This document shows, piece by piece, positions 44,346-61,955 of a DNA stretch of 64,000 nucleotides. A model generated the notes under the pieces. The model had not been told where the DNA came from. It made no database searches and saw only the letters and a program-made list of their open reading frames with translations. The stretch covers positions 2,944,304 through 3,008,303 of the forward strand of contig NZ_AP019547.1 of assembly GCF_013168275.1 (NCBI RefSeq), in the 5' to 3' direction. The first letter of the stretch is position 1, and each line of letters starts with the position of its first letter. Both the position numbers and the translations under genes were made by a program. The DNA comes from Candidatus Nitrotoga sp. AM1P (GTDB taxonomy: Bacteria > Pseudomonadota > Gammaproteobacteria > Burkholderiales > Gallionellaceae).

Positions 44346-44789
44346 CTACAGGCGTTGCTCAAACAGGGCGTCCAGATTCAGAATGGGAACGTTTTCGTCT
44401 AACAACTGGAAACAGGAGTGGGCGATAGATGGCCATGCGGGCGAATCCTGGGGTAGCAGACACGCTGTATCGTCTCCGACGCTCATCATGCGAAAATAGG
44501 TAGATAGCCCCAGGGCGCCCCATCGCTGCTCGCCATTTGATCGGGCAAAATAGGTGACGACCAGCGCAAGACTAACTTTTTCCAAAGAGCGTTGGCCGAT
44601 GAGCGGTGCCAGCTCCACGAATGGAATGGCGCGGTCTTGCCAAATACAAAGCGAATGGCAGTAGTCTGGGGCCAGCGGTACATTGACAAGCCTTGGAGAC
44701 ATGACGAGTTCGGCGACTTCGTGCAGACCAATTGCTGCGTGGCGGCCACTTGTAAATTCGAACAAAACGGCGTTATGTTGAGTATTCAT
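44346..44789 (-). CDS. CheW-like coupling protein, last gene of the pilus chemosensory operon
   Basis: A 147-residue CheW domain (FTSGRHAAIGLHEVAELVMS at the start and IPFVELAPLIGQRS in the middle). The ATG at 44789 has GGAGAG nine bases upstream; an upstream start at 44834 would overlap the previous gene more. It overlaps the preceding CheW-like gene by 17 bases. It would link receptors to the ChpA-type kinase. The position matches PilW/ChpC-type accessory couplers. Confidence 0.8.
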   Translation of the reverse strand: MNTQHNAVLFEFTSGRHAAIGLHEVAELVMSPRLVNVPLAPDYCHSLCIWQDRAIPFVELAPLIGQRSLEKVSLALVVTYFARSNGEQRWGALGLSTYFRMMSVGDDTACLLPQDSPAWPSIAHSCFQLLDENVPILNLDALFEQRL

Positions 44790-45219
44790 GCCTGCTCTCC
44801 GAGGAGTTGATGTGACACCACAGTGCACCGACATCGCAACAGAATGCGATGCGTTCTTCGACCTGTACGTAAGCTTTGATCGGCGATTCGGAGAGGCTCA
44901 TACATACGGGTAAAGAATGTAGTGTTGGATCTTGAATGAGGAGCGACTGTACCGAATCCACAGTAATGCCGAAGCGTTGCTCATCTGCCTGTAGTACGAC
45001 GATGTAGCGACACCGTGTATCGATCTTGTTCGCCACGCCCAAATGTGCAGTTAGCGAATGGACTTCGCATGCGTTCCCTTCAATGACCTCGCTCGCTTTC
45101 ATTTCATCCTCTCCGTCCTGTAATGTGACCATATTTTCGAGAGAGACGATCGCGTGTTGGTCGATGAGCAGATTCAGACTGTCAAAACAGATTAACGCGT
45201 ACCCAGCTGCTGCGTTCAT
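44773..45219 (-). CDS. Divergent CheW-like protein (ChpC-like position)
   Basis: A 148-residue protein with weak CheW-domain features (YALICFDSLNLLIDQHAIVS, and RYIVVLQADEQRFGITVDSV towards the middle). It starts directly at the end of the chpA-like gene, sharing one base, and overlaps the next CheW-like gene. ChpC in Pseudomonas occupies this place. Coupling function is inferred from position and fold. Confidence 0.65.
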   Translation of the reverse strand: MNAAAGYALICFDSLNLLIDQHAIVSLENMVTLQDGEDEMKASEVIEGNACEVHSLTAHLGVANKIDTRCRYIVVLQADEQRFGITVDSVQSLLIQDPTLHSLPVCMSLSESPIKAYVQVEERIAFCCDVGALWCHINSSESRHEYST

Positions 45220-48200
45220 TACATTCCGCCGATTGCGTTGTGGATGTGCCCGAGAAGGTCGATGTCGGTGTAGGGTTTGGTCATGTATACGCTAACCCCT
45301 GCGAGCTCGGCTTGTTTACGATGTTTATCCATGGAGCGCGAGGTGATCATGATCACCGGCAACTTGCGGGTGTCGGCGCGTGCGCGCAGGTGCGAGGTGA
45401 ATTCGAGTCCGTTCATGTTAGGCATTTCAAGATCAGTGAGTATCACTCCGGGTGTAAAATTCTTCAGGAGGGTGATCGCTTCTAATCCATCTTTCGCTGC
45501 TTTCACGTTATATCCTGCGTCGCTTACAAGTTGCACTAATGATTTGCGCACGCTAAGGGAATCGTCCACAACAAGAATGCCACCTCGCGCCGATGCCACC
45601 GGATCCTCTGAAGTCATGGAAGGTGCGGCTTCTATTAGTTGTGGCGTGGGAAGGCGCAGCAATTCGGCTAAATTGAGTAGCGGCGCGACGGTGCCGTCAC
45701 CCAGTATCGCGATACCGCCCACGCCATTAATTTTCTTTACGTACCGGCCTGGATCCTTGAGGATTAGGTCACGACCGTCAACGATGCGGTCGACCAGCAC
45801 CGCATGAATATCAAGGTCGACGTGCACAAGCAATACGGACTTCGAATTCATGATTTCTGATGTCATCACGCCGCTGTCATAGCCGATCAGTGCACTCAGG
45901 ACCTTTACCGGATAGGTACGTTTTTGATAGCGCAGGTTTATTTCGCTGCCGATTGATATGAATTCTCCTGCGGCAGGCGGTAACGCTTGGTCCAGCGCGT
46001 AGCTTGGTACCGCAAAAACTTGGTCGGAAGATTCTATTAATAATGCGTGCTGAGCGACGAGTGACGCTTGGAAGCGTAGTAGGAATTCACAGCCTTTCCC
46101 GAACTCGGATCGTACTTCGACCATTCCCTTCATGACGAGAAGTCGGTCGCGTACTACATCAAGCCCGACACCCCGTCCCGATATTTCATTCGTGCGTTCT
46201 CGTGTTGAAAAGCCAGGAAGTAGAATGAAGCGTGACAATTCTTCATCAGAGATATCCTGACTGGCCTGTATCAGGCCACGCTCGATCGCCTTGTGTCGGA
46301 TCGCGCTGTAGTCGAGTCCGTGCCCGTCGTCCCTGCAACGCACAGTGACCGTCTGGCCGCGTCGCGAAAACACAAGATGAATAGTGGACACCTCTGGCTT
46401 TCCAGCATGCATACGTTCATCGGGTGTCTCAATGCCATGATCGATGGCATTTCGCAGTATATGCAGCAGCGGATCGACGAGGTTATTCAGCATATCTCCG
46501 TCGATCAGAATATCTTCCCCTTCGATTATCAGCTTTGCTTTTTTTCCTGTTTGCTGCGAAGTCTGGCGGATGTTGCGGTGCAGGCGAGGGGCGAGGCTTC
46601 CCACTGGGCTCATGCGAGTGGTCATGGCCATGTATTGAAGTTCGCGCTGTACTCGCTGCGTTTGTTGAAGCACGGCGCCCATCTGTGCCACGTCTTCTTC
46701 AATGCGCCGACTGAACTCACGTGTGTCGGCCGCTTCTTCTGTCAGCGCGCGGGTGTTGCTCTGAAGCTCGGAGTACTGTTCCATTTCCAGTGCATCAAAT
46801 ATTTGATCACCGTGAGATGTTTGCGTGTCGCGCAGGTTCGCGAAGCCGCGAATGTCAACCAAGTGCTCAAGATCAAAAATACGTTGCTGTACTTTGAGGC
46901 TCTGACGTAATAAACCGTTAGCGCGTTGTTGAGCCTGCTTTACTTGCTCGGTAAGCTGTCCAATTTTTACAGATAGTTCGCCAGTGAGCCGAAAGAGTTC
47001 GTCCATCGTTGTAACTGGGACACGTATTGTTGGCGCGACAGGTATTTGGTTAGTTATATTACTGGACAGAGCAGTTTCTTCATCCCTGAAGGTTTCAGTC
47101 AGTACTTGGGACGGTGCGTTGTGGGGGGCGGCGTCAATTAAAGCTGGAAGCGTCGCATCGAGATCTGTATTTTCAGCCTGAATCGGGGGTGTCGTGTCGA
47201 GATTGGTGGTTTCTGTTTGAATCGCAAACGTTGCATCAAAATCAGTAATTTCAGTTGATGTTAGGAGCGACGCGTCGAGAGCGGCAAGCGCTGGCAGTTC
47301 GGCATTGATTTCATCCTCAATATTTCCTGAGTGAATCCGGCTCGCCCAATCTAGAACAGACTGCAGTATTTTTTTCGCTTGAGTCTGTGTGGGGGCATCC
47401 TCAATGCCGAGCAGGGAGCCTATCATTTGTTCCAGGCACGCTGCTGCGTCGAGTAGTGCATTGGTAAGCGCCAACGGCGGGCGTATCCGGTTCTGCTCAA
47501 ACCATTCGAGGATGTCCTCTGTGTGGTGTCCGAGTGTTGCGATGCCCCGGATGCCGACGATGTTTGCCGAACCTTTCAACGAATGCGCAATGCGCTTTGC
47601 TGCGGCCATATCATCGTTCGTGGCTTCGCCGCCCACAATATTGCGGATGTAGGCGGAAAATTCGGCGGCCTGTGTTGGCGCTTCTTGCAGCAGCGCCTCG
47701 TACACGCCTCGATCCACGTCGGACGGTAGGGCAAGAGAGATGTCTTCATCAGTCGCCACGCGTGGGCGTTCCAGCTCTTCGGCCTCTGCTTCGGCGCGTA
47801 AATACGCCGCTAACACGGGCTCGGCGGTGAGTTCGGTAATGAGTTTAAGGTTGTGCTCGGCATCCACGGGTGCCGGACAGGGGGGCTGGGAAAAGTGCTC
47901 TGCCAAGTGCTCAGCGGATTCGAAGCTCGTAATGTCAGCAAGGTAAGCGACCACAAGATCCGGCCACAGATCGAAGAAGGCTTGTGCCGCGCCGCGTTCT
48001 TCGGCTTGAAGTCCTACAGTGACCACCAGGCACTCCTGCACCTGAGTGCAACAGGACTCCAAGCCGCGCAGCCCGAGCATTCCGCAGGTTGATGCTGTGC
48101 GTTCAATTTGACTTACATATAGATCGAGTGCGTCGCCGAAAGCGGGATCCACTGGGGTAACCGAACAGATCGTTGCGATCCAACCGGCAAGGTCGGCGCG

Positions 48201-48251
48201 CACCTCTTCGATTTCGGTTAGTAGCGCTTCGATGAAATCGCTCATTTGCAT
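45219..48251 (-). CDS. chpA: Hybrid chemosensory histidine kinase, ChpA/CheA-like, with C-terminal receiver
   Basis: A 1010-residue cytoplasmic kinase for type IV pilus control. The N-terminal region (1-150) resembles an Hpt domain without the His. A true Hpt follows, with phospho-acceptor His223 in AHSLKGSANIVG. A variable linker carries a 13-residue repeat (336-374). Then come the dimerisation domain (about 410-550), a kinase core with N-box LRNAIDHGIET (599-609) and G box GRGVGLDVV (692-700), a CheW-like P5 domain, and a receiver (891-1010) with Asp940 in ILTDLEMPN. It has fewer Hpt domains than Pseudomonas ChpA. It follows pilJ on the same strand. Confidence 0.9.
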   Translation of the reverse strand: MQMSDFIEALLTEIEEVRADLAGWIATICSVTPVDPAFGDALDLYVSQIERTASTCGMLGLRGLESCCTQVQECLVVTVGLQAEERGAAQAFFDLWPDLVVAYLADITSFESAEHLAEHFSQPPCPAPVDAEHNLKLITELTAEPVLAAYLRAEAEAEELERPRVATDEDISLALPSDVDRGVYEALLQEAPTQAAEFSAYIRNIVGGEATNDDMAAAKRIAHSLKGSANIVGIRGIATLGHHTEDILEWFEQNRIRPPLALTNALLDAAACLEQMIGSLLGIEDAPTQTQAKKILQSVLDWASRIHSGNIEDEINAELPALAALDASLLTSTEITDFDATFAIQTETTNLDTTPPIQAENTDLDATLPALIDAAPHNAPSQVLTETFRDEETALSSNITNQIPVAPTIRVPVTTMDELFRLTGELSVKIGQLTEQVKQAQQRANGLLRQSLKVQQRIFDLEHLVDIRGFANLRDTQTSHGDQIFDALEMEQYSELQSNTRALTEEAADTREFSRRIEEDVAQMGAVLQQTQRVQRELQYMAMTTRMSPVGSLAPRLHRNIRQTSQQTGKKAKLIIEGEDILIDGDMLNNLVDPLLHILRNAIDHGIETPDERMHAGKPEVSTIHLVFSRRGQTVTVRCRDDGHGLDYSAIRHKAIERGLIQASQDISDEELSRFILLPGFSTRERTNEISGRGVGLDVVRDRLLVMKGMVEVRSEFGKGCEFLLRFQASLVAQHALLIESSDQVFAVPSYALDQALPPAAGEFISIGSEINLRYQKRTYPVKVLSALIGYDSGVMTSEIMNSKSVLLVHVDLDIHAVLVDRIVDGRDLILKDPGRYVKKINGVGGIAILGDGTVAPLLNLAELLRLPTPQLIEAAPSMTSEDPVASARGGILVVDDSLSVRKSLVQLVSDAGYNVKAAKDGLEAITLLKNFTPGVILTDLEMPNMNGLEFTSHLRARADTRKLPVIMITSRSMDKHRKQAELAGVSVYMTKPYTDIDLLGHIHNAIGGM
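47130..47246 (-). repeat. 39-bp tandem repeat inside the chpA-like gene
   Basis: Three units coding TDFDATFAIQTET, TNLDTTPPIQAEN and TDLDATLPALIDA in the linker between Hpt and kinase domains. The units have diverged. Confidence 0.7.
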
Positions 48252-48309
48252 TGTCTATCATCCTCAGGTCGAAGCACGGCGGCACCATTGTGCCGCCGTC
48301 ATTGCAGGC

Positions 48310-50628
48310 TTAAACAACCGCCTGGAGCTTGGGCATGGCGCTCGTACGCTCGGGCATGACCGACAAACCAAGAGTTTGTGCGCTCGGTAGTTTGAATACG
48401 CCCACCGTTTTTACCAATTGCTCAGCGGATCGAGAGAGCAGGTTGGTTTCGGCCGTCTGGGTTGTAATCTGTTCTCCGGTCTTCTCCGCACTGCGGCCAA
48501 TATCCTCAACTCTGTTTTGCAGAATTTCTGCACTCTTGATTTGTACTTCCAGGCTGACGGCAATCTGCAGCACTAAATCCACCAAATTATCGGTTGCCTT
48601 CTGTGTTTCTGCCATTTGAACGCCGGCTTTTTCAGCGAACTCGGTTCCTTGTACTACTTGAGAGATCGTTTTGTTCACTGTATTGATAGTGTCGTTCGTT
48701 TCGATTTGAATGTTATTTACCAACGTGCCAATTTGTGCGGTGGCGTTGCGAGAGGATTCGGCAAGGCGTTGTACTTCTTCGGCCACCACCGCGAAACCGC
48801 GGCCTGCATCGCCGGCGACTGCGGCCTGTACGCTCGCGTTCAACGCAAGTACATGTGTACGTTCCGCGATTGTATTGATCAAATTTACGATGCCGCTGAT
48901 TTCCTGCGAACGCTCGCCAAGACGCTTAATTCGTTTTTCGGTTTCGGCAATCATTTCACGGATTGAGCTCATGCCCTTCATTGTTCCAGTCACGGCATTG
49001 AGCGCAGAGAGGGTTGAACGGGTCGCATCGCCGGATGCAATATGGGATTTTGCGGTGAGCTGTGCCACATTGTTCATAGCTTCGGTTGAAGTGGCGAGCT
49101 CGCGGATCATTTCCTCGACGCCTTTTCGTTCTACTGCAGCTGTCGCTTGCACTTGATCTGCCTGTCCTTTCAATTTGACCGAGGAATTTTCCACTTGGCC
49201 GGCGATTTGCATGACTCGGTAAAGCACTTTACTCGTCTCTTCCGTGTGCTGATTTACGGCATCAGACACCGTACCCACAATGTCTTGCGTGACGGGCGCC
49301 TTGACCGTGAGGTTTTTCTCTGAGAGCTTCTGCATTGTTTGCAGAAGCGAGATCACCGAATCATTGAGTGCTTCGGTTTCCGCCTCAGCCTTGCGTTGCG
49401 CAGCCATACGTTCTTCCAGCAGTTGATTAACCGTCCGTCCCAAATCGCCGACTTCGTCTTTTGCCTCGATCGAGCCGAGCGCTGTGTTATCTCCGCCACG
49501 CACTTTTTCGACCGATAGCTGTAATAAACGCACTGTGTCGGTGACATTTCGTGTGATCAGCAAGGCGAGAAGCGCTGCAAATATGATAAAGGCGAGTACC
49601 ACGCCCGATAGTATTAATGAACGTTTGAGCAGGTTTGCAACCTTGAGCTGCAACTCGTCGTTCAGCGCCACCATCGCGATATCAATTAATTTGAATTGAT
49701 CGTTGATACTGGCAGTGAACTGCTTGACATACTCTGCGGAACTGAACTGAAGCCGCTGCGCATTGCTGATTTCTGCGGCGGCCAGACCGGCAAGGTGTTG
49801 GATTTGTTCTTCAGCGATTTGATCTTTGCCTGCAATCTTGTTCTTAATTCGCGCTTCCTCGATCTGTGCTTTACCTAACTGATTAGTCGCTTGATTGGTT
49901 TTGGCGGTCAAGGCCGAGATTAAAGTTGCCATCGTTGCGCGGTCGGCCAAGGTGAGTGTTTCTTTGTCTAGCTCGGCACCGGATTGCTGAGCGATGACTA
50001 AGTGCTCGGCTTCCGCGAGTCGGGCGGCGCCAAACGCTCGCACCTGCCCTAATGTCTCAGCGACTTGCGGTAGATCTGCCAGTGTGGCCCGGATCAGGAA
50101 GTGCGTCGCAGCATCTGATTCGAATGAGAGCTTGTAATGATCCATAAGAAGATCAAGCAGGGTCAATTCGGTAGCGACCAGTGCAGAGTGATCAGCAAAT
50201 GATTTGCGCGCGTCTGCGCGTTGACTCGCGGTCTCGGATGCGATTCGTGTCCAATCGGTTTTTACTTTTTCCCATGCTTCGGTCTGTTTGGCATTGTTAT
50301 TATCTTTCATGTAGGGGTCGAAGGTGCTGATCGCCCGGGCAACCTCCGTCTCTTTAGCGGCGCGATCTGCAACTACGGAGGCATTTCCGCCGATGAAGGC
50401 GGCGGCCAAGCCGCGATGCTGTTGAGTATTCTGGATTACCTTGAGCAGCTTTGCTGCGGGGTCAATTCCGCTCGCCTCGAGCTTGGCGGTCTGAATGGCG
50501 GCGGTAGTCTGCGTCAAGAACAGGTAGGCAGGCACTCCGGCAGCGGGTAGCGCGACGGCCCCCAGGAGCAAGAACTTCTGCCACAGCTTCATCCGGGTAA
50601 GGAAGGTAATTGTCAGCCTGCTTTTCAT
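48310..50628 (-). CDS. pilJ: Type IV pilus chemoreceptor PilJ-like
   Basis: A 772-residue receptor with an N-terminal helix (about 18-37), a periplasmic region with PilJ-type helical bundle (NTQQHRGLAAAFIGGN, QQSGAELDKETL), a second helix (about 341-362), HAMP, and a cytoplasmic signalling domain. The tip sequence RTHVLALNASVQAAVAGDAG is the pilus-type variant of the usual receptor hairpin. It probably senses surface contact or pilus retraction, as in Pseudomonas. Its operon position is between pilI and the ChpA-like kinase. Confidence 0.92.
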   Translation of the reverse strand: MKSRLTITFLTRMKLWQKFLLLGAVALPAAGVPAYLFLTQTTAAIQTAKLEASGIDPAAKLLKVIQNTQQHRGLAAAFIGGNASVVADRAAKETEVARAISTFDPYMKDNNNAKQTEAWEKVKTDWTRIASETASQRADARKSFADHSALVATELTLLDLLMDHYKLSFESDAATHFLIRATLADLPQVAETLGQVRAFGAARLAEAEHLVIAQQSGAELDKETLTLADRATMATLISALTAKTNQATNQLGKAQIEEARIKNKIAGKDQIAEEQIQHLAGLAAAEISNAQRLQFSSAEYVKQFTASINDQFKLIDIAMVALNDELQLKVANLLKRSLILSGVVLAFIIFAALLALLITRNVTDTVRLLQLSVEKVRGGDNTALGSIEAKDEVGDLGRTVNQLLEERMAAQRKAEAETEALNDSVISLLQTMQKLSEKNLTVKAPVTQDIVGTVSDAVNQHTEETSKVLYRVMQIAGQVENSSVKLKGQADQVQATAAVERKGVEEMIRELATSTEAMNNVAQLTAKSHIASGDATRSTLSALNAVTGTMKGMSSIREMIAETEKRIKRLGERSQEISGIVNLINTIAERTHVLALNASVQAAVAGDAGRGFAVVAEEVQRLAESSRNATAQIGTLVNNIQIETNDTINTVNKTISQVVQGTEFAEKAGVQMAETQKATDNLVDLVLQIAVSLEVQIKSAEILQNRVEDIGRSAEKTGEQITTQTAETNLLSRSAEQLVKTVGVFKLPSAQTLGLSVMPERTSAMPKLQAVV

Positions 50629-50668
50629 TTTGTTTCTCCAGTCGGGTCGTAAGTTGGGGGCGGGTACG

Positions 50669-51226
50669 TCAGCCAGAAATTCTGTGCGCCATCATTTCGA
50701 AGAAGCGGACATGATCGAGCTCCAGCCACACCTGTTCTTCTTCTGCATAAGCGTTCGATATGTAGTCGCGAATTGACTCTGGGAACGCTGGAAGCGAGGT
50801 TCGATTCGAGGCACCGAAACGCTTGCGGTTCGGAATACCGTTAACCACGATAGCTGCGATTGCATCACCGCGACCAAGCACGAGGAGCATTGTTTTCGAT
50901 TTCGTGTTGCATGCACCGCCGATGAGCGACGCTAAATCAAACACTGGTACAAGATTGCCATGAAGGTTCACTAGGCCAAATAACCAGCGGCCAGTGTTCG
51001 GAAGGCGAAAAACAGGCGGCATTTCTGAAATTTCGTTTACTTGCGCGTGTGGAACCAGAAACTTAATGTTCGCGACTTCAAAACCTATCCATTCCTGAGC
51101 TGCGGCGAGGGGAGCACCGTACCGTCGAGGGAGCCCGATGGTCATGAGTGCTCCTGCCGTGCGTGCCGGGTGTAATGCGACGCTCGGCGCTAGCAGCGAA
51201 TCAGCAGAGTTGATTTCGTTTTGCAT
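50669..51226 (-). CDS. pilI: CheW-type coupling protein PilI
   Basis: A 185-residue protein: an N-terminal extension (about 1-40) and a CheW domain with FEVANIKFLVPHAQVNEISE and FGLVNLHGNLVPVFDLASLI. It joins PilJ receptors to the kinase. It lies 40 bases upstream of pilJ, after pilH. Confidence 0.88.
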   Translation of the reverse strand: MQNEINSADSLLAPSVALHPARTAGALMTIGLPRRYGAPLAAAQEWIGFEVANIKFLVPHAQVNEISEMPPVFRLPNTGRWLFGLVNLHGNLVPVFDLASLIGGACNTKSKTMLLVLGRGDAIAAIVVNGIPNRKRFGASNRTSLPAFPESIRDYISNAYAEEEQVWLELDHVRFFEMMAHRISG

Positions 51227-51283
51227 GGCTGTCTGGTACAGAATGGATCAACAAGGAGACATTCCAATGTGGGAGCGGGGTTG

Positions 51284-51646
51284 TCATAATGTGTTGATGA
51301 GCCTGGCAATATCATCGGATGTATAGGGTTTAACGACATATCCGCTTCCGCCTTGCATTTGTCCCCACATCTTGTCTGCTTTCTGGTCTTTGCTTGTCAC
51401 AAATACGACCGGGATGTCTTTGGTCGCGGGGTCTTTTTTCAAAGCGCGGGTAGCGGCAAAGCCATCCATATCTGGCATGTTTACGTCCATGAAAATCAGA
51501 TCCGGCTTTTCGGATTTGGTCTTCTCGATCGCTTCCTTGCCGTTGGCGGCGGTGACGACAAAGCGGCCTGTGCCGATTACGATTGTTTGAATATTGACAA
51601 GATCAGTATAAGAATCGTCGACGCAAAGAACTTTCTTGATTGTCAT
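51284..51646 (-). CDS. pilH: Single-domain response regulator PilH-like
   Basis: A 120-residue receiver domain with acidic CVDDSY start, phospho-acceptor Asp in IFMDVNMPDMDGF, Thr/Ser in FVTSKDQ and Lys in VVKPYTSDDI. PilH opposes PilG in pilus motor control in the known Chp system; the assignment rests on its order in the operon and on the PilH-like GSGYVVKPYT ending. Confidence 0.85.
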   Translation of the reverse strand: MTIKKVLCVDDSYTDLVNIQTIVIGTGRFVVTAANGKEAIEKTKSEKPDLIFMDVNMPDMDGFAATRALKKDPATKDIPVVFVTSKDQKADKMWGQMQGGSGYVVKPYTSDDIARLINTL

Positions 51647-51694
51647 AATTGCTACTCCTTGTAATGGGTTTGAGTAAAATATAATGCGGTCCGG

Positions 51695-52642
51695 TCAAGC
51701 ATGCGTGGACAGGTACTTGCTGATTACTTCGAAAAGGCGGTTTTCGTTGACCGGTTTTGTGAGGTACGTATCGCAACCAGACATAGTGGCTCGGATCTTG
51801 TCGAAAGTTGAACCTTTACTTGAAAGCATCACCACCGCAGTTTTTGCAGCACCTTTTTTAGACTTGATAAGTTTGCAAACCTGATAGCCATTGATTCCTG
51901 GCATCACGACATCGAGAAAGACACAGGTGTAGTGTTTGGTACCGGTGAGTCCAACTGCCTGTTCCCCTGTTTCGGCGTAATCGACATTGAAACCAAATGG
52001 CGCGAGCTTGACGCGCATGAATTCACGCACAGTCATATTGTCGTCGCAAACTAAAACCCAGTTAAATGGGCGATCCGGCGAGGACACGGGCGCAATGTTA
52101 TTCGTCAGACTGTGATTTACTGAGGTTAACTTCCGCGCCGCTGTATCTAATATTTGTGGGGGAGCTATCGAGGGCACCGATGGTCGCGGGGCTGGTATTG
52201 CGATCATCGGTTGGGTTTTTTCGTAGGGTACTGCTATACGAATTGCAGGCTCTAGTTGGAGCGCTTGGCTGGGTGTGTTAATTCCTACTGCGAGATCGAA
52301 TGCTTTGAACAGTTTTGTCCATTGCAAGGGTCGTGACAAAGTTGTGCACGCAATACCATGATCGGTGTCGCCAATCAGGATTGCAGGCCGAGTGCTTATG
52401 GCATTTTTTTGACGAAAATCCGCTATCGCACTTGTGTCTTCTGCATCAACGAGAAAAACGTCCGGTGCTGAATCCATCGTTGAATCCATTGTCGGCATAA
52501 ACTCGACAAATTTAGGCGCGCGGCGTGCGGATAAACTGAAAATGCTCTTCAAGATAATCCGTTCGGTCTGGCTAAAGCCGTGGATATCTATGGTGTATTG
52601 AGATTTCGCCGGGGACGTAGTTGTGAATGTTTCGATCATCAT
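51695..52642 (-). CDS. PilG-like response regulator with long N-terminal domain
   Basis: A 315-residue protein. The C-terminal receiver (about 195-312) has LVCDDNMTVREFM, phospho-acceptor Asp in VFLDVVMPGINGY and Lys in LTKPVN. The N-terminal 190 residues include a degenerate receiver-like stretch (VFLVDAEDTSAIADF, then SRPLQWTKLFKAFDL) with no complete acidic pocket, and a Pro-rich linker. Ordinary PilG is only a receiver. Its start overlaps the kinase gene stop by four bases (ATGA), so the kinase and regulator are translationally coupled. Confidence 0.8.
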   Translation of the reverse strand: MMIETFTTTSPAKSQYTIDIHGFSQTERIILKSIFSLSARRAPKFVEFMPTMDSTMDSAPDVFLVDAEDTSAIADFRQKNAISTRPAILIGDTDHGIACTTLSRPLQWTKLFKAFDLAVGINTPSQALQLEPAIRIAVPYEKTQPMIAIPAPRPSVPSIAPPQILDTAARKLTSVNHSLTNNIAPVSSPDRPFNWVLVCDDNMTVREFMRVKLAPFGFNVDYAETGEQAVGLTGTKHYTCVFLDVVMPGINGYQVCKLIKSKKGAAKTAVVMLSSKGSTFDKIRATMSGCDTYLTKPVNENRLFEVISKYLSTHA

Positions 52643-54405: not shown

Positions 54406-54614
54406 TTGTCCACACCGAAATATAAAATCCTGTGGATAGAGAAAAGCTCAAATTTTTTGATAACTGGATTCATGGCTTGCATTTTTAAGCTTGGATGATC
54501 AGGGCAATGCTGCTTCGATTTGCCTTATGCGCGCAAGGCACAATTAGCCGCTGCTATTTAAAATAGCGGATGACTTTTGGAAAACTTTAGCTCGACTTTG
54601 TATTTTTTACGCTC

Positions 54615-54800
54615 TATGTGATTCGGAGTAGGTAACCTTCGATAAATGCAAAATGAACAAAAAATAAGATGAGCAAAAAAATAGCGTGCTAAAAATCCAT
54701 TCGTCTTAGATCTGTTAACAGATGGGCAGATTTATTTTTCTGCGAGAGGTGAAAGTTGATTACCCACTCTGATCACACATAGAGCTTTTTTCTATTTTAT
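54615..54800. repeat. Intergenic repeat, copy A
   Basis: Matches 63683-63845 along most of its length. Shared stretches include GAAAGTTGATTACCCACTCT, GCTAAAAAT and CATAGAGC or TATAGAGC. It lies in the 550-base gap between the divergent kinase and phosphatase genes, in the same direction relative to the downstream gene as copy B. The centre (about 54700-54735) is rearranged. Confidence 0.75.
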
Positions 54801-54956
54801 TTGTTGGGTGTGCAGTAACATGCTGTTACGTTGACCCTGCGTAGAGGTTCGTCAATATTCCAATTCACCACGGGTACGCGTGTGCTGTAAAAAATGTTAC
54901 GCTAAAAAATGGTAATCTGGAAAACTAGAGTTTTGAATGTATAGAGATGCCCAAAT

Positions 54957-55781
54957 ATGGATATTGAACAGGCGCTAGAAATCGTTAGTCAGACTCACCC
55001 GGGTGTTGCGCGCTCGCACAACGAAGATAGCGTGGCTTATGACGCGTCGTGTGGGTTAGTGGTGCTGGCGGACGGTATGGGCGGGCACAATGCTGGTGAA
55101 ATTGCTAGCGGCATTACAGTTTCGCTGATAACGACCGAAATAAAGCATAGCTTGGAAAGCATGCGTCCTGAAGACAGGGGTGAAGGCGGTGAAGATGTTG
55201 GCGTGGGACTGTTACGCGAAAAAGTGCGAAAAGCCAATGCTTCTATCTACCATTCGTCGCAAAGCCAGCCGCAATATGCTGGTATGGGCACCACGGTAGT
55301 AGCCGGGCTGTTTTACGATAACCGTTTAGCAGTTGCACACGTCGGCGATTCGCGGATGTACCGACTGCGCGGTGAAATATTTGAGCCTATTACTCGTGAC
55401 CATTCACTGTTACAGGAACAAATCGACAGAGGTTTGCTAAGTCACAAAGATGCGCGACTATCCAAAAATAAAAATTTGATTACGCGCGCGGTTGGCGTTG
55501 ATCCAGCAGTCGAGGTAGAAATTCAAATTCATGCGGTGCAAGTAGGCGATATTTATTTAATATGCTCGGACGGCTTGAACGATATGGTCGAAGACGATGA
55601 GCTCAGAGCTACGTTGCACATGCTGCGAGCCAATTTAAAGTTGGTAGCGAAACAGTTGATTGAAATGGCAAACGATAATGGCGGGCGGGATAATGTATCT
55701 GTAATACTTATTAAGGTTAACGGTGAGTTTGCCGTACAGCGTGGCTGGCTTGCAAAAATACTGTCCTGGTTCAAGAATTAA
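54957..55781 (+). CDS. PP2C-family Ser/Thr protein phosphatase
   Basis: A 274-residue cytoplasmic phosphatase with the standard PP2C metal motifs: ARSHNEDS, VLADGMGGHNAGE, AHVGDSRMYR, CSDGLNDMV and GGRDNVSVI. It would reverse phosphorylation by the divergent Ser/Thr kinase. An FHA protein gene follows after 17 bases, and then the pilus ATPase gene. The C-terminal tail (WLAKILSWFK) is hydrophobic/amphipathic and may touch the membrane. Confidence 0.92.
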   Translation: MDIEQALEIVSQTHPGVARSHNEDSVAYDASCGLVVLADGMGGHNAGEIASGITVSLITTEIKHSLESMRPEDRGEGGEDVGVGLLREKVRKANASIYHSSQSQPQYAGMGTTVVAGLFYDNRLAVAHVGDSRMYRLRGEIFEPITRDHSLLQEQIDRGLLSHKDARLSKNKNLITRAVGVDPAVEVEIQIHAVQVGDIYLICSDGLNDMVEDDELRATLHMLRANLKLVAKQLIEMANDNGGRDNVSVILIKVNGEFAVQRGWLAKILSWFKN

Positions 55782-55798
55782 ATACGGGGATTGATGAT

Positions 55799-56593
55799 AT
55801 GGCGGCGAAACTGATACTAAGCATGAATGGTGGGGTGTTGCAGGAATATGTTCTGGACAAGGAGCGCATGACGATAGGGCGCAAGCCGCACAATGAGATC
55901 GTTATTGATAATCTTGCAGTTAGCGGTGAGCATGCAGCGGTAGTGACCATACTGAATGATTCCTTCTTGGAAGATTTGGATAGCACTAATGGAACTTTGG
56001 TAAATGGTGCGGCAATTAAAAAGCATTTTTTGCAAAGTAATGACGTAATTGAAATTGGTAAATATAAACTCAAGTATGTGAACGATCAGAAAAGCCAATC
56101 TACTGCGGCAGACTTCGAGAAAACAATGGTATTTCGTGCGTCTTCCCGTATTGCATCTGCCCCCCCGGTGAAAGCTGAGCCGTATGAAATGTCAGGGAAG
56201 TTAAAGCCTAAGGAGCAACCCCCATTAACACCTGTTGAGAGAGTACCTGAATTGCGACAGGCTGAGGTTGTTACGCCATCGCAGCCGGCTCTTGTAACCC
56301 CTGTCCAGAAAATGCCTGATTTGCAGCAAGCAATAGGTGTAATACAGGTACTGACCGGACCTAATGCGGGAAAAGAACTTGAGCTAGTGAAAAATCTGAC
56401 TACGGTAGGAAAATCCGGCTTGCAGGTCGTCGTATTTACGCGTCGTCCGCGTGGTTATTTCATCACCTATGTCGAAGGGGCAAGCTACCCCAATCTTAAT
56501 GGTAAGCCGCTGGACGACCAACCGTGTCAGCTTAATGAGCACGACATTATTGAGTTGGCGGGGATAAAAATGGAGTTCTATCTCAAAGTTTGA
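55799..56593 (+). CDS. Double-FHA domain protein
   Basis: A 264-residue protein. The first FHA domain (about 1-100) has IGRKPHNEIVIDNLAVSGEH and LEDLDSTNGTLVNG, with the Arg, Ser, His and Asn that hold phosphothreonine. A Pro-rich linker (about 120-175) contains a repeated VTP/VPEL motif. The second, C-terminal domain (about 180-264) looks like an FHA fold that has lost the Ser-His pair (VGKSGLQVVVFTRRP and NLNGKPL). It is the likely reader of kinase output, and it sits directly between the phosphatase gene and the pilus motor gene. Confidence 0.85.
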   Translation: MAAKLILSMNGGVLQEYVLDKERMTIGRKPHNEIVIDNLAVSGEHAAVVTILNDSFLEDLDSTNGTLVNGAAIKKHFLQSNDVIEIGKYKLKYVNDQKSQSTAADFEKTMVFRASSRIASAPPVKAEPYEMSGKLKPKEQPPLTPVERVPELRQAEVVTPSQPALVTPVQKMPDLQQAIGVIQVLTGPNAGKELELVKNLTTVGKSGLQVVVFTRRPRGYFITYVEGASYPNLNGKPLDDQPCQLNEHDIIELAGIKMEFYLKV

Positions 56594-56947
56594 GGGTTTG
56601 TGTGAGTAAACTTTGCACAGTAGATCGAAACCGACATCTTCAGTTCAGAAAGAATGGGTGCTACGTGCCGTACCATGCAGGAAATCAGCGAATGCTTGCA
56701 TGGATTCACACCGGTGATATTGGTGAACGGTCAAGCGTTCAACTTCTATCTCCGCAGAAACAATAAATAAAATTGTATCGTTTCCCATCCGAAATATCAC
56801 AACCTTAAATATGGGTGGCATAACCCGTCTTTGTTTCAAAATCGCATGGAGAACTGTCGTTAAATGCCGCTATCTTGATAGCAAGCAACAAAGTTATGCA
56901 ATCTCACCATACGGCAAGTCACACTTGGAGTGATTAAGGAGAAGTGG
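56594..56947. other. Gap before the pilus ATPase gene
   Basis: About 350 bases with no convincing gene or terminator. The ATPase gene may have its own promoter here. AAGGAG at 56936-56941 is the ribosome site for the ATG at 56948. Confidence 0.4.
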
Positions 56948-59383
56948 ATGGATAATGCACCAATAATACAGCGAGAACGCCGGGCTAATGCTAGCCAGAT
57001 TGAAGCGCAACTGGTGTTCACGAAAAATCTTAATCAGGTTATAAGCAATATTCATGATCACGTCATAAGCAAGATTAATACTGCATACAATTTCGACGAA
57101 ATTATGCTGGGAGTTAGCAAGGATATATGCACGATATTCAACGCTGACCGCCTCACCATTTACTCACTGGATAAAGACAAGGCCACGCTGATTTCAAAAA
57201 TAAAGACCGGGGCTAACTCATTCAAGGATCTCAAACTACGTATTACTGAGCAGAGTCTTGTCGGGTATGTGGCGCTACAAAAAAAAATACTTAACATCAC
57301 GGATGTATACGATGAGAAAGAGCTAACTTCGCATAGCCCCAACCTACGCTTTCTGCAAGACGTGGATAAGCGCACTGGCTATCGTACCAAGCAAGCTCTT
57401 GTGGTGCCCATACTTGATCCCGATAGCAAGGATTTGGCAGGTGTTATCCAGGTTCTTAATAATAAGGCCGATCAACCTTTTTCGGGAATGCTAGTAGATG
57501 GAATATTAGAGCTGGCGCAGAACTTGGCAGTGGCGCTGCGTCAGAGTCAGCAGCAACCTGCTGCTAAAACCAAGTACGATCATTTGGTTTATGACGCGGT
57601 GCTATCTGCTGACGAATTGGATCTCGCCGTATCCACAGCGCGACGCAAAAATGTTGACATCGAGGATGAGCTACTCGACGAATTTCAGGTTAAACCGGCC
57701 GCTCTTGGTAAAGCGCTTGCACTCTTCTTCGGCGTGCCCTATGAACCCTTCAACCCTGAGCGCATCAAACCGACCGAATTACTCAGAAATCTGAAACGGG
57801 AATATGTAGAAAGCAGCCAATGGGTGCCGATAGATGAGATTAAGGAAGGCTTGGTAATTCTTACCACCGATCCAGAGTGGATCCAAACCTCACGCGTGGT
57901 AAACAACGTTTTTTCCAGGAGCCGACTGGTTTATCGGGTTTGTTCGCAGCGCGAATTCAATGCAACCCTCAAATTGTTCTTTGGTGGAGGCGGAGGTGGC
58001 ACCAGCGGTATGTCCGGTAGCTTGGAAATGGACGGTACCTCAATGGATGAGATGCTTACAGCCATGGGAGGGGATGAAGAAGAGTTTGAGGAGATCAATC
58101 AGGAGGACGTCAGTGCGGCGGCAGACAATGAATTAGTCAAGCTGGTGAATAAAATCATCATGGATGCCCATAAAATGGGCGCTTCTGACATTCATGTCGA
58201 ACCCGCACCGGGTAAGGGCAAGACCGTGATTCGTCTGCGCAAGGATGGCTCGCTGCTACCTTATATCGAAGTGCCGTCATCTTTTCGGAGTGCGCTGGTT
58301 ACGCGTATCAAAATCATGTGCGACCTTGATATTTCAGAGAAGCGCAAACCGCAGGACGGCAAGATCAAGTTCAATAAATATGCGCCTCTGGATATTGAGC
58401 TGCGCGTCGCGACCATTCCCTCTCAGGGCGGCATGGAAGACATCGTGATGCGTATTTTGGCCAACGGCGAGCCGATAAAACTTAATGAATTGGGCTTGTC
58501 GGCACGAAACCTTGAAACCCTGAAAGCGGTTATCAGCAAACCTTATGGCCTGTTTTTTGTATGCGGCCCAACTGGATCCGGTAAAACGACCACTTTGCAT
58601 TCTGTGCTTGGCCATATTAATAAGCCTGAGACAAAAATCTGGACGGCAGAAGACCCAGTAGAAATTACGCAGAAGGGCTTGCGTCAGGTGCAAATCAACA
58701 AAAAGGCAGGTATGGATTTCGCTACCATCATGAGAGCCTTTTTGCGCGCTGACCCGGACGTGATTATGGTGGGTGAAATGCGTGACAAGGAAACGGTTTC
58801 CATTGGCATAGAAGCCTCTCTTACCGGTCATTTGGTGTTTGCCACCCTGCACACTAATAGCGCGCCGGAATCCGTCGTACGATTATTGGATATGGGTATG
58901 GATCCATTTAACTTTTCCGATGCCTTGCTAGGTGTTCTGGCGCAGCGTTTGGCCAAACGTTTATGCAAGAAGTGCAAAAAACCCCATACCGCCACTCAAA
59001 ATGAGCTCAAATCATTGCTTGCTGAATATGCGACAGAGCTTATGAACTGCGCTTCCTGGAAACAGGATGCCAATGCTGCTTACAAGTCACTGTACGCCGA
59101 ATGGGTCAAGCTGTTTGCGGATGAAATGGGGAGATTCACGTTATATGAACCGGTAGGTTGTGAATATTGCTCCGGCACAGGTTATCGCGGACGGGTGGGT
59201 TTACATGAGTTGATGGTAGGCACCGACCTGATAAAAAAAAATATTCAGGAACACGCTCGCGTCGCGGAAATGTTTGCTAATGCACTTAACGACGGCATGC
59301 GCACCCTGAAACAAGATGGCATTGAAAAGGTTTTATCCGGCATCACCGACATGCATCAGGTGCGTGTCGTTTGCATGAAGTAA
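56948..59383 (+). CDS. GAF-domain fused PilB/GspE-type secretion ATPase
   Basis: An 811-residue hexameric motor-type ATPase. Order: an N-terminal GAF domain (about 45-200), an MshEN-like domain (about 210-345), a Gly-rich acidic linker (346-390), then the catalytic domain with Walker A GPTGSGKTT (540-548), Walker B region DVIMVGEMRD (604-613) and His box GHLVFATLHT. The zinc motif is split: Cys673 and Cys676, then Cys738 and Cys741, with a long insert. Pilus extension ATPases of this class normally have no GAF domain. The start at 56948 has AAGGAG six bases upstream; a GTG at 56930 is less likely. The pilin gene follows. Confidence 0.88.
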   Translation: MDNAPIIQRERRANASQIEAQLVFTKNLNQVISNIHDHVISKINTAYNFDEIMLGVSKDICTIFNADRLTIYSLDKDKATLISKIKTGANSFKDLKLRITEQSLVGYVALQKKILNITDVYDEKELTSHSPNLRFLQDVDKRTGYRTKQALVVPILDPDSKDLAGVIQVLNNKADQPFSGMLVDGILELAQNLAVALRQSQQQPAAKTKYDHLVYDAVLSADELDLAVSTARRKNVDIEDELLDEFQVKPAALGKALALFFGVPYEPFNPERIKPTELLRNLKREYVESSQWVPIDEIKEGLVILTTDPEWIQTSRVVNNVFSRSRLVYRVCSQREFNATLKLFFGGGGGGTSGMSGSLEMDGTSMDEMLTAMGGDEEEFEEINQEDVSAAADNELVKLVNKIIMDAHKMGASDIHVEPAPGKGKTVIRLRKDGSLLPYIEVPSSFRSALVTRIKIMCDLDISEKRKPQDGKIKFNKYAPLDIELRVATIPSQGGMEDIVMRILANGEPIKLNELGLSARNLETLKAVISKPYGLFFVCGPTGSGKTTTLHSVLGHINKPETKIWTAEDPVEITQKGLRQVQINKKAGMDFATIMRAFLRADPDVIMVGEMRDKETVSIGIEASLTGHLVFATLHTNSAPESVVRLLDMGMDPFNFSDALLGVLAQRLAKRLCKKCKKPHTATQNELKSLLAEYATELMNCASWKQDANAAYKSLYAEWVKLFADEMGRFTLYEPVGCEYCSGTGYRGRVGLHELMVGTDLIKKNIQEHARVAEMFANALNDGMRTLKQDGIEKVLSGITDMHQVRVVCMK

Positions 59384-59396
59384 CCCCCGCACACAC

Positions 59397-59440
59397 AGAA
59401 GAAATAAATCCGTTCGCCCTGAGCTTGTCGAAGGATGGAT
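59397..59440. repeat. REP-like palindromic element
   Basis: The core CGTTCGCCCTGAGCTTGTCG followed by AAGG, flanked by AAATCC, is the inverse of the core at about 63750-63776. It lies 14 bases beyond the ATPase stop, in a typical REP position. Confidence 0.75.
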
Positions 59441-59647
59441 GGATTTACTTTTTTCAATCTTCTTCAGAAGAAGTAAATCTCCAGACCATTATCTTTTTTG
59501 CAATGTGCCTTATGCGAAACCAGAGTGACAAAAACCGTCACTTTCCTGACGTAAATCGGCTTCTCTCTTCAATATGAAGTTCAAAAGTCTCTTTAATTTG
59601 TTATGCGAACTTGGTACAGGCGGTGATGGCTGTAGGAGAAGATGTGC

Positions 59648-59664
59648 TGGCATGAATCCTGCTT
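59648..59664 (+). promoter_or_regulatory. Sigma-54 type promoter of pilA
   Basis: TGGCATGAATCCTGCTT: GG at 59649-59650 and GC at 59661-59662, exactly ten bases apart, matching TGGCAC-N5-TTGC well. The leader to the pilA ATG is about 45 bases. pilA genes are often RpoN-dependent through PilR. Confidence 0.7.
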
Positions 59665-59720
59665 ATATTAAGCCGCACACCCCGTGTACCAAATTTTTAA
59701 CTCTTGAAGGAGTATCAATT

Positions 59721-60191
59721 ATGAAACAAATGCAAAAAGGTTTTACTCTGATCGAATTGATGATCGTGGTTGCGATTATCGGTATTCTTGCGGCCGTAGC
59801 GATCCCTGCTTATCAAGATTACGTAGTTAAGGCTAAGCTTGCAAAAGTCGCAACCGCTGTGGATCCCATTAAGCTGGGAATTGCCATGTATATCCAGGAA
59901 AACGGTACTCCGCCTAATTTTGCTTTAGCTGATGGTGGAGATTGGTCTACTAGGGGCTTAGGATTGGGCGCAACAGGCCCAACAAAAACCACAGAAGTTG
60001 TAAGCTATGCTATGGCAACTACAACCGGCGCTATCACAGTCACTCTGTGCACTGATTGCATTAAGACTGTACTTAATGCCGCAACCCTCACTTGGACTCC
60101 AACACCTTCTGCTACAGGTGTAACTTGGGCGGTTACTTCAAGTGTTACTACTGACCCAGTTCTGATGAACGTCCTCGCCAAGTGGAAATAG
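59721..60191 (+). CDS. pilA: Type IV pilin PilA
   Basis: A 156-residue type IVa prepilin. The short leader MKQMQKG is followed by the cleavage site and the conserved [20 protein letters not shown] helix with Glu at mature position 5. The head domain has only two Cys, four residues apart (Cys110 and Cys113), and lacks the usual C-terminal Cys loop, ending in VLAKWK. The frame is open from 59574, but the ATG at 59721 has GAAGGAG eight bases upstream and starts the leader. It has a sigma-54-type promoter and a clear terminator. Confidence 0.93.
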
Positions 60192-60255
60192 CATTAAATA
60201 AAAATCTCTTCGCCGAACCAAGACTTTAAATTGTAGAGTTGATGATTTTCTGAAG

Positions 60256-60289
60256 ACCCGCGCTCTGTAATGGATCGCGGGTTTTTTTG
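60256..60289 (+). terminator. Terminator after pilA
   Basis: ACCCGCG (60256-60262) and CGCGGGT (60276-60282) with a 13-base loop, followed by a run of T. Confidence 0.9.
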
Positions 60290-60317
60290 TAAGTAGTTAT
60301 TTTAAATGGTGTGAGTA

Positions 60318-61955
60318 ATGAATTTTTTTTCTAACTTTGTATACCCGCGTGACCGAATCAAAGCACTGTTTTTGATGCTGCTGGTTATTGTGGTGTATGT
60401 CCCATTTTTGAATAACCCTCTGATATTTGATGACATCCCATTTTTTGATGCAGCGATAGATCATTACGCAAATACACTGTTTCGTTTTGATTTACGCTGG
60501 TTTCCCTATACGACGTTTGGTGTTACCTGGGTATTTTTCGGTGAAGACCCACTTGTTTTCCGCATACAGAATTTATTGCTGCATGGTATGAATGTGTTGT
60601 TGTTATTGCTGGTGTTGCGAATGTGGATCAAGCTGTTTATCACTGATGTGAGCAAAGAAAAGATCGCGAATTGGGGCGCTTGGTTGGGAGCGCTGGTATT
60701 TGCATGCCACCCTCTAGCGGTTTATGGCGTAGGTTATTTGATACAGCGCAGTATTTTGATGGCGACATTGTTCACATTGATAATGCAATTGGCCTATCTA
60801 CGTGGCCTGCTGGAGGGCGACAAACGCTATATGGCGCTAGCAGTGATGGCATATTTTCTGGCGCTGTTCAGCAAGGAACATAGCTTGATGGCTCCCGCCA
60901 TATTGCTACCTTTGACCTTCGCGATTCGTGCGCAGAATAAACTTTCGTCCCGCGCTTTGCTTGTAACTTGGTTAGGATTTGTATTGATTGGGCTGTTGGT
61001 GGTGTTGCGCATAAAAGGTTTATTTGGTGTGCCTTATGAGAAAGATGCGGCGGCATTGTTTGGGGAACAAGCGCTGCTCCAGGGAACTGCATCGTTGCAT
61101 TTGCTGAGCGTGTTGACGCAGGCGGGGCTTTTTTTTAAATACTGCTTGTTAATGCTTGTGCCCAACCCCGCGTGGATGTCGATAGATATGCGTGAGCCGT
61201 TTATCCTTACTTGGAAAGAGTGGACAAACTGGATCGGCCTGGTTGCTTTTGTTGCTTATGGTGCCTTTGCGCTGATTTTTTTGCTGCGCGGTGGGCGGGT
61301 CGCCTTGTTGGGGTTGGCATTGCTGTACCCGTGGTGTTACTTCATGGCGGAATTTTCAAGCATACGCGTTCAGGAAATTTTTGTGCTGTATCGCAGTTAT
61401 TTATGGTTGCCTGGCTATATGTTGTTATTGCCATTAGTGCTTAGTTCGCTCCCCAGCCGAAAAATTATGCTGGTGGGTGCATTAGCGGTTTTGCTACTCG
61501 TGCCGCTGGCATGGAATCGACTGTGGGTGTTTGCGGATAAATATCGCCTGTGGGATGACGCGGTGCACTTGCTGCATGGCGAAGACCGCCTCGGCGCCCA
61601 TCGTACCTATTTTAATCGCGCACAGGCTTCGGCTGCGGTTAAAAATTGGGATGCGGCCATTGCAGATTATCAAAAATCGCTGGCAATTAATGCAACCTAT
61701 CCTGAGGTTAATGTTGCTTTGGCTACTGCATATTCAAACTCAGGACGGTATCCGGAAGCGCTGGCGGAATTTGATAAAGCGATTGCTGGTAGCCCGAAAA
61801 ATGCCAGTGCCTATTATGGTAAAGGCTTCGTTTTAAAAAATTTACGTGACATGACTGGGTCGATACAGCAAATGGAAAAAAGCTGTCAGTTGGGACTGCA
61901 GCAAGCTTGTGTCATCGTGGCATTGAGTCAGCAGCACAAGAATGTTTCACCATAA
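60318..61955 (+). CDS. Polytopic membrane GT-C-like protein with C-terminal TPRs, candidate pilin glycosyltransferase
   Basis: A 545-residue protein with about ten to twelve membrane helices (residues 15-410) and three TPR-like repeats at the C-terminus (about 430-540, including AAIADYQKSLAINATYPEVN and YPEALAEFDKAIAGSPKNAS). The N-terminal loop FLNNPLIFDDIPFFDAAI has the Asp-Asp feature, and LLLHGMNVLLLLLVLRM the following helix, of TMTC/GT-C type membrane glycosyltransferases. The gene is 127 bases downstream of pilA, beyond its terminator, the place taken by pilin-modifying enzymes (TfpO, TfpW) in other bacteria. Glycosylation of PilA is an inference. Confidence 0.65.
   Translation: MNFFSNFVYPRDRIKALFLMLLVIVVYVPFLNNPLIFDDIPFFDAAIDHYANTLFRFDLRWFPYTTFGVTWVFFGEDPLVFRIQNLLLHGMNVLLLLLVLRMWIKLFITDVSKEKIANWGAWLGALVFACHPLAVYGVGYLIQRSILMATLFTLIMQLAYLRGLLEGDKRYMALAVMAYFLALFSKEHSLMAPAILLPLTFAIRAQNKLSSRALLVTWLGFVLIGLLVVLRIKGLFGVPYEKDAAALFGEQALLQGTASLHLLSVLTQAGLFFKYCLLMLVPNPAWMSIDMREPFILTWKEWTNWIGLVAFVAYGAFALIFLLRGGRVALLGLALLYPWCYFMAEFSSIRVQEIFVLYRSYLWLPGYMLLLPLVLSSLPSRKIMLVGALAVLLLVPLAWNRLWVFADKYRLWDDAVHLLHGEDRLGAHRTYFNRAQASAAVKNWDAAIADYQKSLAINATYPEVNVALATAYSNSGRYPEALAEFDKAIAGSPKNASAYYGKGFVLKNLRDMTGSIQQMEKSCQLGLQQACVIVALSQQHKNVSP

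Follow-up and report, generated by a model that had tools for sequence, protein, structure and literature searches.

How a chemosensory operon might control type IV pilus extension through Ser/Thr phosphorylation is the question raised by a locus of Candidatus Nitrotoga sp. AM1P, in which a Chp-like operon headed by a cyclase–Ser/Thr kinase gene stands opposite genes for a PP2C-type phosphatase, an FHA protein and a PilB-like ATPase. The locus occupies positions 44,346 to 61,955 of the window, by which we mean the whole stretch of 64,000 nucleotides that was analysed (GCF_013168275.1, contig NZ_AP019547.1, positions 2,944,304 to 3,008,303), the final 64 kb of a single-contig assembly of 3,008,303 bases. 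Our preferred answer, to which we give a probability of roughly one half, is that the locus encodes a switch in two stages that governs the extension of type IV pili, a kinase–phosphatase–FHA switch resembling that of the type VI secretion system (T6SS), acting on a pilus motor and probably driven by the chemosensory operon. This answer starts from the genes and their order, from an intact kinase, phosphatase, first FHA domain (FHA1), Hpt, receiver (REC) and Walker motifs, and from a genome in which no PilB or TfpB was found. The layout is real and conserved, and both of its halves are older than the preliminary description of this DNA had supposed; what is special is their union.

Layout and conservation of the two operons

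All genes named in the preliminary description were recovered at their coordinates from the list of open reading frames (ORFs) and from Pfam, in an arrangement that is not interleaved, as had been claimed, but consists of two divergent operons separated by 551 bp (54406..54956). The minus-strand operon, running from 54405 to 44346, begins with the cyclase–Ser/Thr kinase fusion of 588 aa (52639..54405; Guanylate_cyc at residues 71-253 and Pkinase at 327-539, from Pfam and alignment), followed by a PilG-like long response regulator of 315 aa with a conserved N-terminal domain, a fast-evolving linker and a C-terminal REC (51695..52642; PF00072). A PilH-like single receiver (51284..51646; PF00072, 85.2 bits), a PilI-like CheW (50669..51226; PF01584, 68.8 bits), a PilJ-like chemoreceptor of 772 aa with HAMP, MCPsignal and an unassigned sensor (48310..50628) and a ChpA-like hybrid CheA of 1010 aa with Hpt, HATPase_c, CheW and REC domains (45219..48251) come next, and two CheW-like proteins close the operon (148 aa, 44773..45219, PF01584 at 26.7 bits; 162 aa, 44346..44834, 28 bits against a cut-off of 23.5). 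In the ChpA-like protein the phosphoacceptor His, the ATP-binding boxes and the REC Asp were recognised by eye, and the order PilG-PilH-PilI-PilJ-ChpA with a CheA–REC hybrid is that of Pil-Chp systems. In the PilJ-like protein, HAMP and MCPsignal alone pass a Pfam cut-off (at E up to 5); no sensor domain does, and this includes what we take to be the PilJ-type sensor family. Because a single Hpt was detected in the 1010-aa ChpA-like protein and the PilJ-like protein has no sensor domain match, the label Chp-like is apt.

The plus-strand operon runs from 54957 to 61955. Its first product is the PP2C-type phosphatase of 274 aa (54957..55781; PF13672; PDB relatives including PstP and PppA), its second an FHA protein related to GarA and OdhI (55799..56593; PF00498) that consists of a canonical FHA1, a linker and a degenerate second FHA; of the two FHA domains claimed for it, Pfam finds one, and support for the other is weak (hhalign probability 83, E 9e-6). 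Next come the GAF-MshEN-T2SSE PilB-like ATPase (56948..59383, in an ORF that opens with GTG at 56930; Pfam, with PDB relatives PilB and PilF) and a type IV pilin-like protein (59721..60191; PF07963, PF00114), whose start was placed by eye and is most likely 59721 rather than the ORF opening at 59574. The claimed coupling of starts holds for kinase and PilG (4 bp overlap), ChpA and CheW (1 bp) and the two CheW genes (62 bp), and PP2C and FHA are 17 bp apart; it does not hold on either side of the ATPase gene. Ser/Thr kinase, PP2C and FHA genes lie together, as in PpkA-PppA-Fha sets, and no T6SS family occurs among the 20 window proteins scanned with Pfam. The last gene encodes a protein with a membrane-like N-terminal part and C-terminal TPRs (60318..61955), for which the label GT-C finds no Pfam model, TPRs alone passing; it is possibly a membrane protein that serves as a pilin-modifying transferase. 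An M48 peptidase-TPR gene (62139-63596) adjoins the cluster, and is also present in 11 of 34 ATPase loci of relatives.

The adjoining of writer, eraser, reader and motor is not peculiar to this genome; an order unique to it had been named as a possible refutation, and that outcome did not occur. At all ten other full-length kinases of the genus, CheW-CheW-ChpA-PilJ-PilI-PilH-PilG-kinase stands opposite PP2C-FHA-ATPase, with pilin and TPR protein following in nine and the tenth contig stopping past the ATPase. This synteny is kept while kinase identity drifts to 78-94%. Many loci end at contig ends, and genes within loci were counted by tblastn, ORF calls having given antisense frames in G+C-rich loci; in G018 the two halves lie on separate contigs, with the break at the kinase. 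The kinase was found in 12 of 19 genus genomes, and a PilJ orthologue (at least 87% identity) in the same 12 and in none of the other seven. Four genomes without the fused kinase (G004, G010, G011 and G016) carry the older cluster form, described below, or parts of it, and no match to kinase, PilJ, GAF-ATPase or PP2C was obtained in G005 (about 100% complete) or G002 (72% complete); the pattern in G005 is as if the entire apparatus had been lost at once. When each genome is paired with the window, dN/dS comes to 0.03-0.06 in the ATPase core, 0.07-0.13 in the kinase, 0.08-0.15 in PP2C and 0.08-0.22 in the cyclase. With a shared order and catalytic-domain values far below 1, the cluster is more than chance.

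Two older units and their meeting

The preliminary description had proposed one combined system, and although the layout behind that proposal is real, it is better read as two older units that were joined. The first unit appears around the other full-length matches to the GAF-type ATPase in genus, family and order, all 34 of which were covered by tblastn (G004, split over contigs, was left out). FHA genes occur at 31 of these loci and PP2C genes at 30, together with a CHASE2-Ser/Thr kinase (23), a CHASE2-cyclase (20), a pilin (21), a metallo-beta-lactamase/PDEase_II-like gene (32, two of them fossils), a GAF-HD-GYP gene (27) and a cNMP-binding-rhodanese gene (9); PilJ or ChpA occurs at none. 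Because FHA, PP2C and CHASE2 kinase recur over the 34 loci, the older unit had already linked kinase, phosphatase and FHA to the motor, and in many loci a cyclase and a likely phosphodiesterase for cAMP came with them. Across the order the ATPase cluster also includes Usp, cNMP-binding-rhodanese and GAF-HD-GYP genes (relatives L066 and L059), hinting at cAMP and c-di-GMP inputs into the same motor. At locus L236 (G063:C5:35000-54999) a kinase nearest the kinase domain of the CHASE2-Ser/Thr kinase (CHASE2-STPK) sits between two PP2C-FHA pairs, a duplicated eraser-reader set.

The second unit is the kinase family beside PilG- and ChpA-type genes. The fused-kinase profile has matches at E 1e-60 or better in no fewer than 40 of 300 genomes of the order, a lower bound given that at most four candidates per genome were scored. 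From 59 places, the window, five cyclase-only places and seven nearer the CHASE2 kinase were set apart, and the other 46 fall in 44 loci beyond the genus, where the kinase family of the window gives the best match. A long PilG directly adjoins the kinase in seven of these (the match in L212 covering just the N-terminal part of PilG), and six have a ChpA-type CheA a few kb away at most, accompanied by a gene of PilJ or CheW type; L191, with the order kinase-PilG-PilH-PilI-PilJ-ChpA, has both, so the PilG- or ChpA-linked total is 12 of 44. The statement that known Chp operons are free of Hanks kinases agrees with the part of the Ralstonia account available to us (PMC7056806), but in these twelve loci of the order such kinases do adjoin PilG- or ChpA-type genes. 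G028 (L051), of the same family as the window genome, has a REC-cyclase-kinase, PilG, PilH, PilI and an NIT-domain protein truncated by the contig end, and Derxia lacustris (L092) has a REC-cyclase-kinase and then PilG, the scan of named genomes covering the matches listed, among which near relatives may be left out. All four kinases scanned with Pfam (L049, L051 and two in L056) carry an N-terminal receiver, and tblastn matches a receiver in others; the kinase of the window genus has none, and its PilG is translationally coupled instead. In L056 (G038:C1) two tandem REC-Ser/Thr kinases adjoin an FHA protein that is 56% identical to the window FHA1 region. Chp linkage in 12 of 44 loci is a weak contrast: compared with the seven CHASE2-nearer loci of the same search it gives p 0.13, and p 0.001 only when 23 module loci are added, and the loci are not independent. 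On the kinase tree the Chp label requires 8 changes (at least 6 by starred branches) against a shuffled mean of 18.6. Because the CHASE2 side of this tree takes in L056 and also L226, which is among the twelve loci with Chp linkage, not all 44 loci contain close kin of the window kinase.

The meeting of the two units has left marks in the window genome. CHASE2 kinase and CHASE2 cyclase are absent from it, its two CHASE2 proteins lying at neither a kinase nor a cyclase match. Between the FHA and ATPase genes lies a plus-strand fossil of the C-terminus of a metallo-beta-lactamase/PDEase_II-like gene (56651..56746; tblastn, 50% over 32 aa, E 1.5e-7), ending at that gene's last residue; the fossil in G009 covers 85 aa (40%, E 2e-20), and pieces also occur in G014 and G018. 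In the kinase tree the window kinase stands among 50 rows opposite the CHASE2 kinases across a 98/96 split, and an origin of the fused kinase by relocation of the earlier kinase of the cluster was rejected for that reason. Since the CHASE2 partners are gone, a phosphodiesterase-like fossil was left behind and the split separates the kinases, the comparison is suggestive of a replacement of the older module's CHASE2 kinase and cyclase by a kinase of another lineage. A search for CHASE2-kinase remnants 5' of PP2C gave two weak matches to the same residues (E 0.12 and 0.28).

The strongest alternative takes the operons to be two neighbours without a common circuit. The Chp-kinase operon would then steer pili alone, through PilG or through transcription, the PP2C-FHA-ATPase genes would be served by the genome's other kinase (Pkinase-HDOD) or be constitutive, and the head-to-head arrangement would reflect shared expression only. 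The 551-bp divergent gap fits such a view, as do the lack of PilJ or ChpA near the ATPase in all 34 other loci, the rarity of FHA or PP2C genes close to the kinase among the 44 loci (L056, L227) and the existence of a second kinase. Yet the window genome has only two Pkinase matches, the fused kinase and a Pkinase-HDOD protein at 489.7 kb, the PP2C query finds no match beyond the window gene, and the CHASE2 kinase is missing, while a threonine of the FHA protein, Thr109, is invariant; synteny, moreover, has persisted although the kinase has diverged. We consider mere neighbourhood unlikely, if less so than the other competitors of the two-stage switch.

The motor ATPase, the candidate phosphosites and the cyclase

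Matches to PF00437 in the window genome are the GAF-ATPase, a protein at 2,004,833, a pair at 1.892-1.894 Mb, a protein at 405 kb and one under the cut-off. The pair and the 405-kb protein belong to the PilT family (497.2, 456.5 and 420.0 against 319.1). The ATPase at 2,004,833 passes the GspE model (TIGR02533, 668.3 against 630.25) and has among its neighbours a GspG that clears its own cut-off and GspF-, GspH- and GspK-like proteins that fall short of theirs; it was rejected as the cell's PilB, NCBIfam and neighbours identifying it as the GspE of a type II secretion system. The window ATPase has intact Walker motifs and fails the models for canonical PilB (TIGR02538, 468.6 against 675.65 bits), TfpB (NF053534, 386.9 against 850) and GspE (TIGR02533, 435.9 against 630.25); the NCBIfam c-di-GMP motif model matches GspE and is not listed for the GAF-ATPase. 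PilC- and PilD-like genes, so named on Pfam matches and on an identity of 66-74% with the PilC proteins encoded in pilBCD operons, are found at 1.862 Mb. The place 5' of them, where PilB would be expected, has no gene for an ATPase, and no significant PilB remnant was found 5' of PilC. Nine order genomes have a complete pilB-pilC-pilD (PilC frame-broken in one) with PilBs that all pass the model (812.8-849.1); these loci were located via ATPase matches, which builds in the presence of PilB, and they show that the operon occurs in the order, though not that every PilC belongs to one.

A true TfpB (L254, G010:C277; 918.6 against 850) is found in G010, a genome of the same genus without the fused kinase, and five more ATPases of the family and order cluster with it in the tree. 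No match of the PilB or TfpB kind appears in the 12 kinase-bearing genomes among the matches listed (down to E about 6e-71), where at most one match at 37-40% accompanies the GAF type; this match is GspE in both genomes tested, the window genome (G000) and G006. PilB and TfpB thus seem absent from the clade, which leaves the GAF-ATPase, the proper test covering the window genome only. Because no PilB or TfpB was found there, the window ATPase is the only candidate extension motor of its genome. The GAF-ATPases form one clade (100/100) whose nearest neighbour is PilB, at modest support (88/86) and on long branches. In the portions available to us, type IV pilus genes are reported by two genome papers about iron oxidisers, with the word pilB in neither main text; one of the two, on a pair of iron oxidisers (PMC4643136), lists PilACGHIJMNOPQSR and no B.

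The catalytic residues of writer and eraser are in place. The kinase domain scores 141.9 bits, with Lys355, Glu376, Asp449, Asn454 and Asp467 (DFG) invariant in all 11 complete genus sequences, and the phosphatase retains DGMGG, GDSR, SDGL and RDN, which we take to be the PP2C metal-binding Asp motifs. What they might act on is suggested by two threonines. In the FHA linker, Thr109 (codon 56123-56125) of the D-F-E-K-T-M-V motif does not vary in 36 of 36 rows (sequences of 200-330 aa that share more than 40% identity), whichever type of kinase the cluster has, in a linker otherwise poorly conserved (0.56 before the motif, 0.41 after). In the PilG linker, K142-T143-Q144 is invariant in 12 of 12 sequences, T143 alone among 12 Ser/Thr, at a linker conservation of 0.72 in the genus and pairwise dN/dS of 0.26 to 1.2. 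The window's second copy (L053) was dropped from the FHA alignment and from the catalytic-column and PilG-linker counts. Both threonines are candidate phosphosites. The C-terminal end of the G028 kinase holds a similar D-F-E-K-T-Q stretch, and likeness among such short Thr motifs could be chance. A reading of the N-terminal domain of PilG as a receiver in decay was rejected (hhalign probability 0.9 of 100), and single-sequence folds were too poor for use (mean pLDDT 41 for FHA, 37 for PilG).

These sites allow a second alternative, in which the kinase would target T143 of PilG and so tune the chemosensory output, with FHA reading of phospho-PilG as the sole bridge to the motor. It draws on a KTQ motif that does not vary inside a drifting linker and on kinase-PilG being more frequent than any other pair beyond the genus (7 of 44 loci); set against these are a motif that differs outside the genus and the far wider conservation of FHA T109, and we rate it as distinctly improbable.

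Three signalling layers had been claimed for the locus. The kinase half looks intact and the cyclase half impaired. D82 and D126, presumably the metal Asp pair of a class III cyclase, and N208 and R212, presumably its transition-state residues, are present in the window protein. The base-selecting Lys, however, is Arg (R122) in 11 of 11 sequences, against Lys in the REC-bearing L049 and L051, and two of the 11 lose a further catalytic residue (Asp126 to His in G001; Asp205 and Arg212 changed in G008), which together make the cyclase layer doubtful. In a Burkholderiales MAG relative (L093) metal-site residues are also lost, as judged by eye. Because dN/dS is still low despite the residue changes, the cyclase half looks to have been kept for another reason. 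Receivers of cAMP may exist in the window genome, since it has six cNMP-binding matches, four over cut-off. That a fused cyclase under Chp control makes cAMP for the GAF domain of the ATPase we nevertheless regard as very improbable, for although the ATPase gene of relatives has cyclase, PDEase_II-like and cNMP-binding genes as neighbours, the PDB relatives of the GAF domain include cyclase and phosphodiesterase GAFs, no class III cyclase domain other than that of the fusion was found in the genome and its cyclase half is under purifying selection, the Lys-to-Arg change is present in 11 of 11 sequences, Asp126 and Arg212 are each lost once, and the phosphodiesterase-like gene has decayed.

The proposed switch and known systems

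In the two-stage switch that we favour, the array of PilJ-like protein, PilI and ChpA-like protein would hand phosphate to PilG and PilH, and PilG would act on the Ser/Thr kinase in trans, standing in for the receiver fused to the kinases of relatives. The kinase would phosphorylate Thr109 of the FHA linker and perhaps Thr143 of the PilG linker; FHA1 would read the phosphothreonine, on its own chain or a partner's, and free or recruit the GAF-type ATPase, which would extend PilC-dependent pili until PP2C resets the state. The most specific form of this proposal, in which a His-Asp relay feeds directly into a Ser/Thr switch on the genome's only extension ATPase, a kinase from the Chp operon took the place of the CHASE2 kinase and cyclase, and that kinase writes on both T109 and T143, is held more tentatively, with the odds somewhat against it.

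Several observations weigh against the switch. The FHA and ATPase genes are 354 bp apart (from the ATG start) and the ATPase and pilin genes 337 bp, both without coupling, and the HDOD-fused kinase (G000:C1, about 489.6-491.5 kb; L251:4639-6465) could serve PP2C and FHA. The swap looks like a single event in a single clade, which leaves the co-occurrence within the genus unreplicated, and in G014 PP2C-FHA-ATPase is present while kinase and PilJ were not found, its contig beginning 304 bp before PP2C. The remaining 32 of the 44 kinase loci show no long PilG or ChpA-type gene, KTQ does not occur in the PilG of G028, and two PilG linkers of another family read only A-T-V-V and A-T-Q-V. Finally, the phosphotransfer steps and the contact between FHA and ATPase, like the control of the kinase by PilG, are steps that we infer.

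If the proposal is right, the locus would add a fast, reversible layer of control to a PilB-like motor and bring two phosphorylation chemistries into one pathway. It would also account for pilus extension in a genome with PilC, PilD and PilT-family proteins and without PilB or TfpB. The gene of this PilB-like motor keeps company with those of a kinase, a phosphatase and an FHA reader in loci across the order, and with a chemosensory operon in one genus; with two threonines named, the switch is directly testable.

Pilus extension motors are tuned by c-di-GMP partners, by inhibitors and by cAMP-driven expression. In the part of a review of PilB control that we could consult the words serine and GAF are absent, and no title in the open-licence literature, as far as it was accessible, pairs a kinase-phosphatase-FHA set with a PilB-like gene or a Hanks kinase with a Chp operon; the absence of titles is weak evidence of novelty. 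The FHA protein resembles GarA and OdhI in the sequence of FHA1 and in having one conserved Thr adjoining the FHA domain. In GarA and OdhI this Thr precedes the FHA domain and the partners are metabolic enzymes, whereas in the window protein it follows FHA1 and the proposed partner is a motor ATPase. TfpB, the second extension motor of Acinetobacter baylyi, is likewise a PilB-like ATPase located outside the pilBCD operon (PMC8213720, a paper whose main text, in the portion available, does not use the word GAF); the window ATPase, in contrast, scores 386.9 under the TfpB cut-off of 850, and the true TfpB of the genus is in the kinase-less G010.

The Pil-Chp systems of Pseudomonas aeruginosa and Ralstonia solanacearum (pilGHIJ-chpA) share with the window operon the order PilG, PilH, PilI, PilJ, ChpA and the CheA–REC hybrid. 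The Ralstonia operon, in the part of the account at hand, consists of five genes, none of them for a kinase, and a rubredoxin gene lies beyond it (PMC7056806); the window operon differs in its PilG of 315 aa, its ChpA of 1010 aa, its PilJ without a known sensor domain and its kinase. The other half recalls the PpkA-PppA-Fha pathway of the T6SS, in which a Ser/Thr kinase, a PP2C phosphatase and an FHA protein likewise surround a cell-envelope machine and in which PpkA phosphorylates Fha in Acidovorax citrulli, according to the portion of that report available to us (PMC12607579). In the window, by contrast, the machine is a PilB-like pilus ATPase, and the kinase is fused to a cyclase and heads a chemosensory operon.

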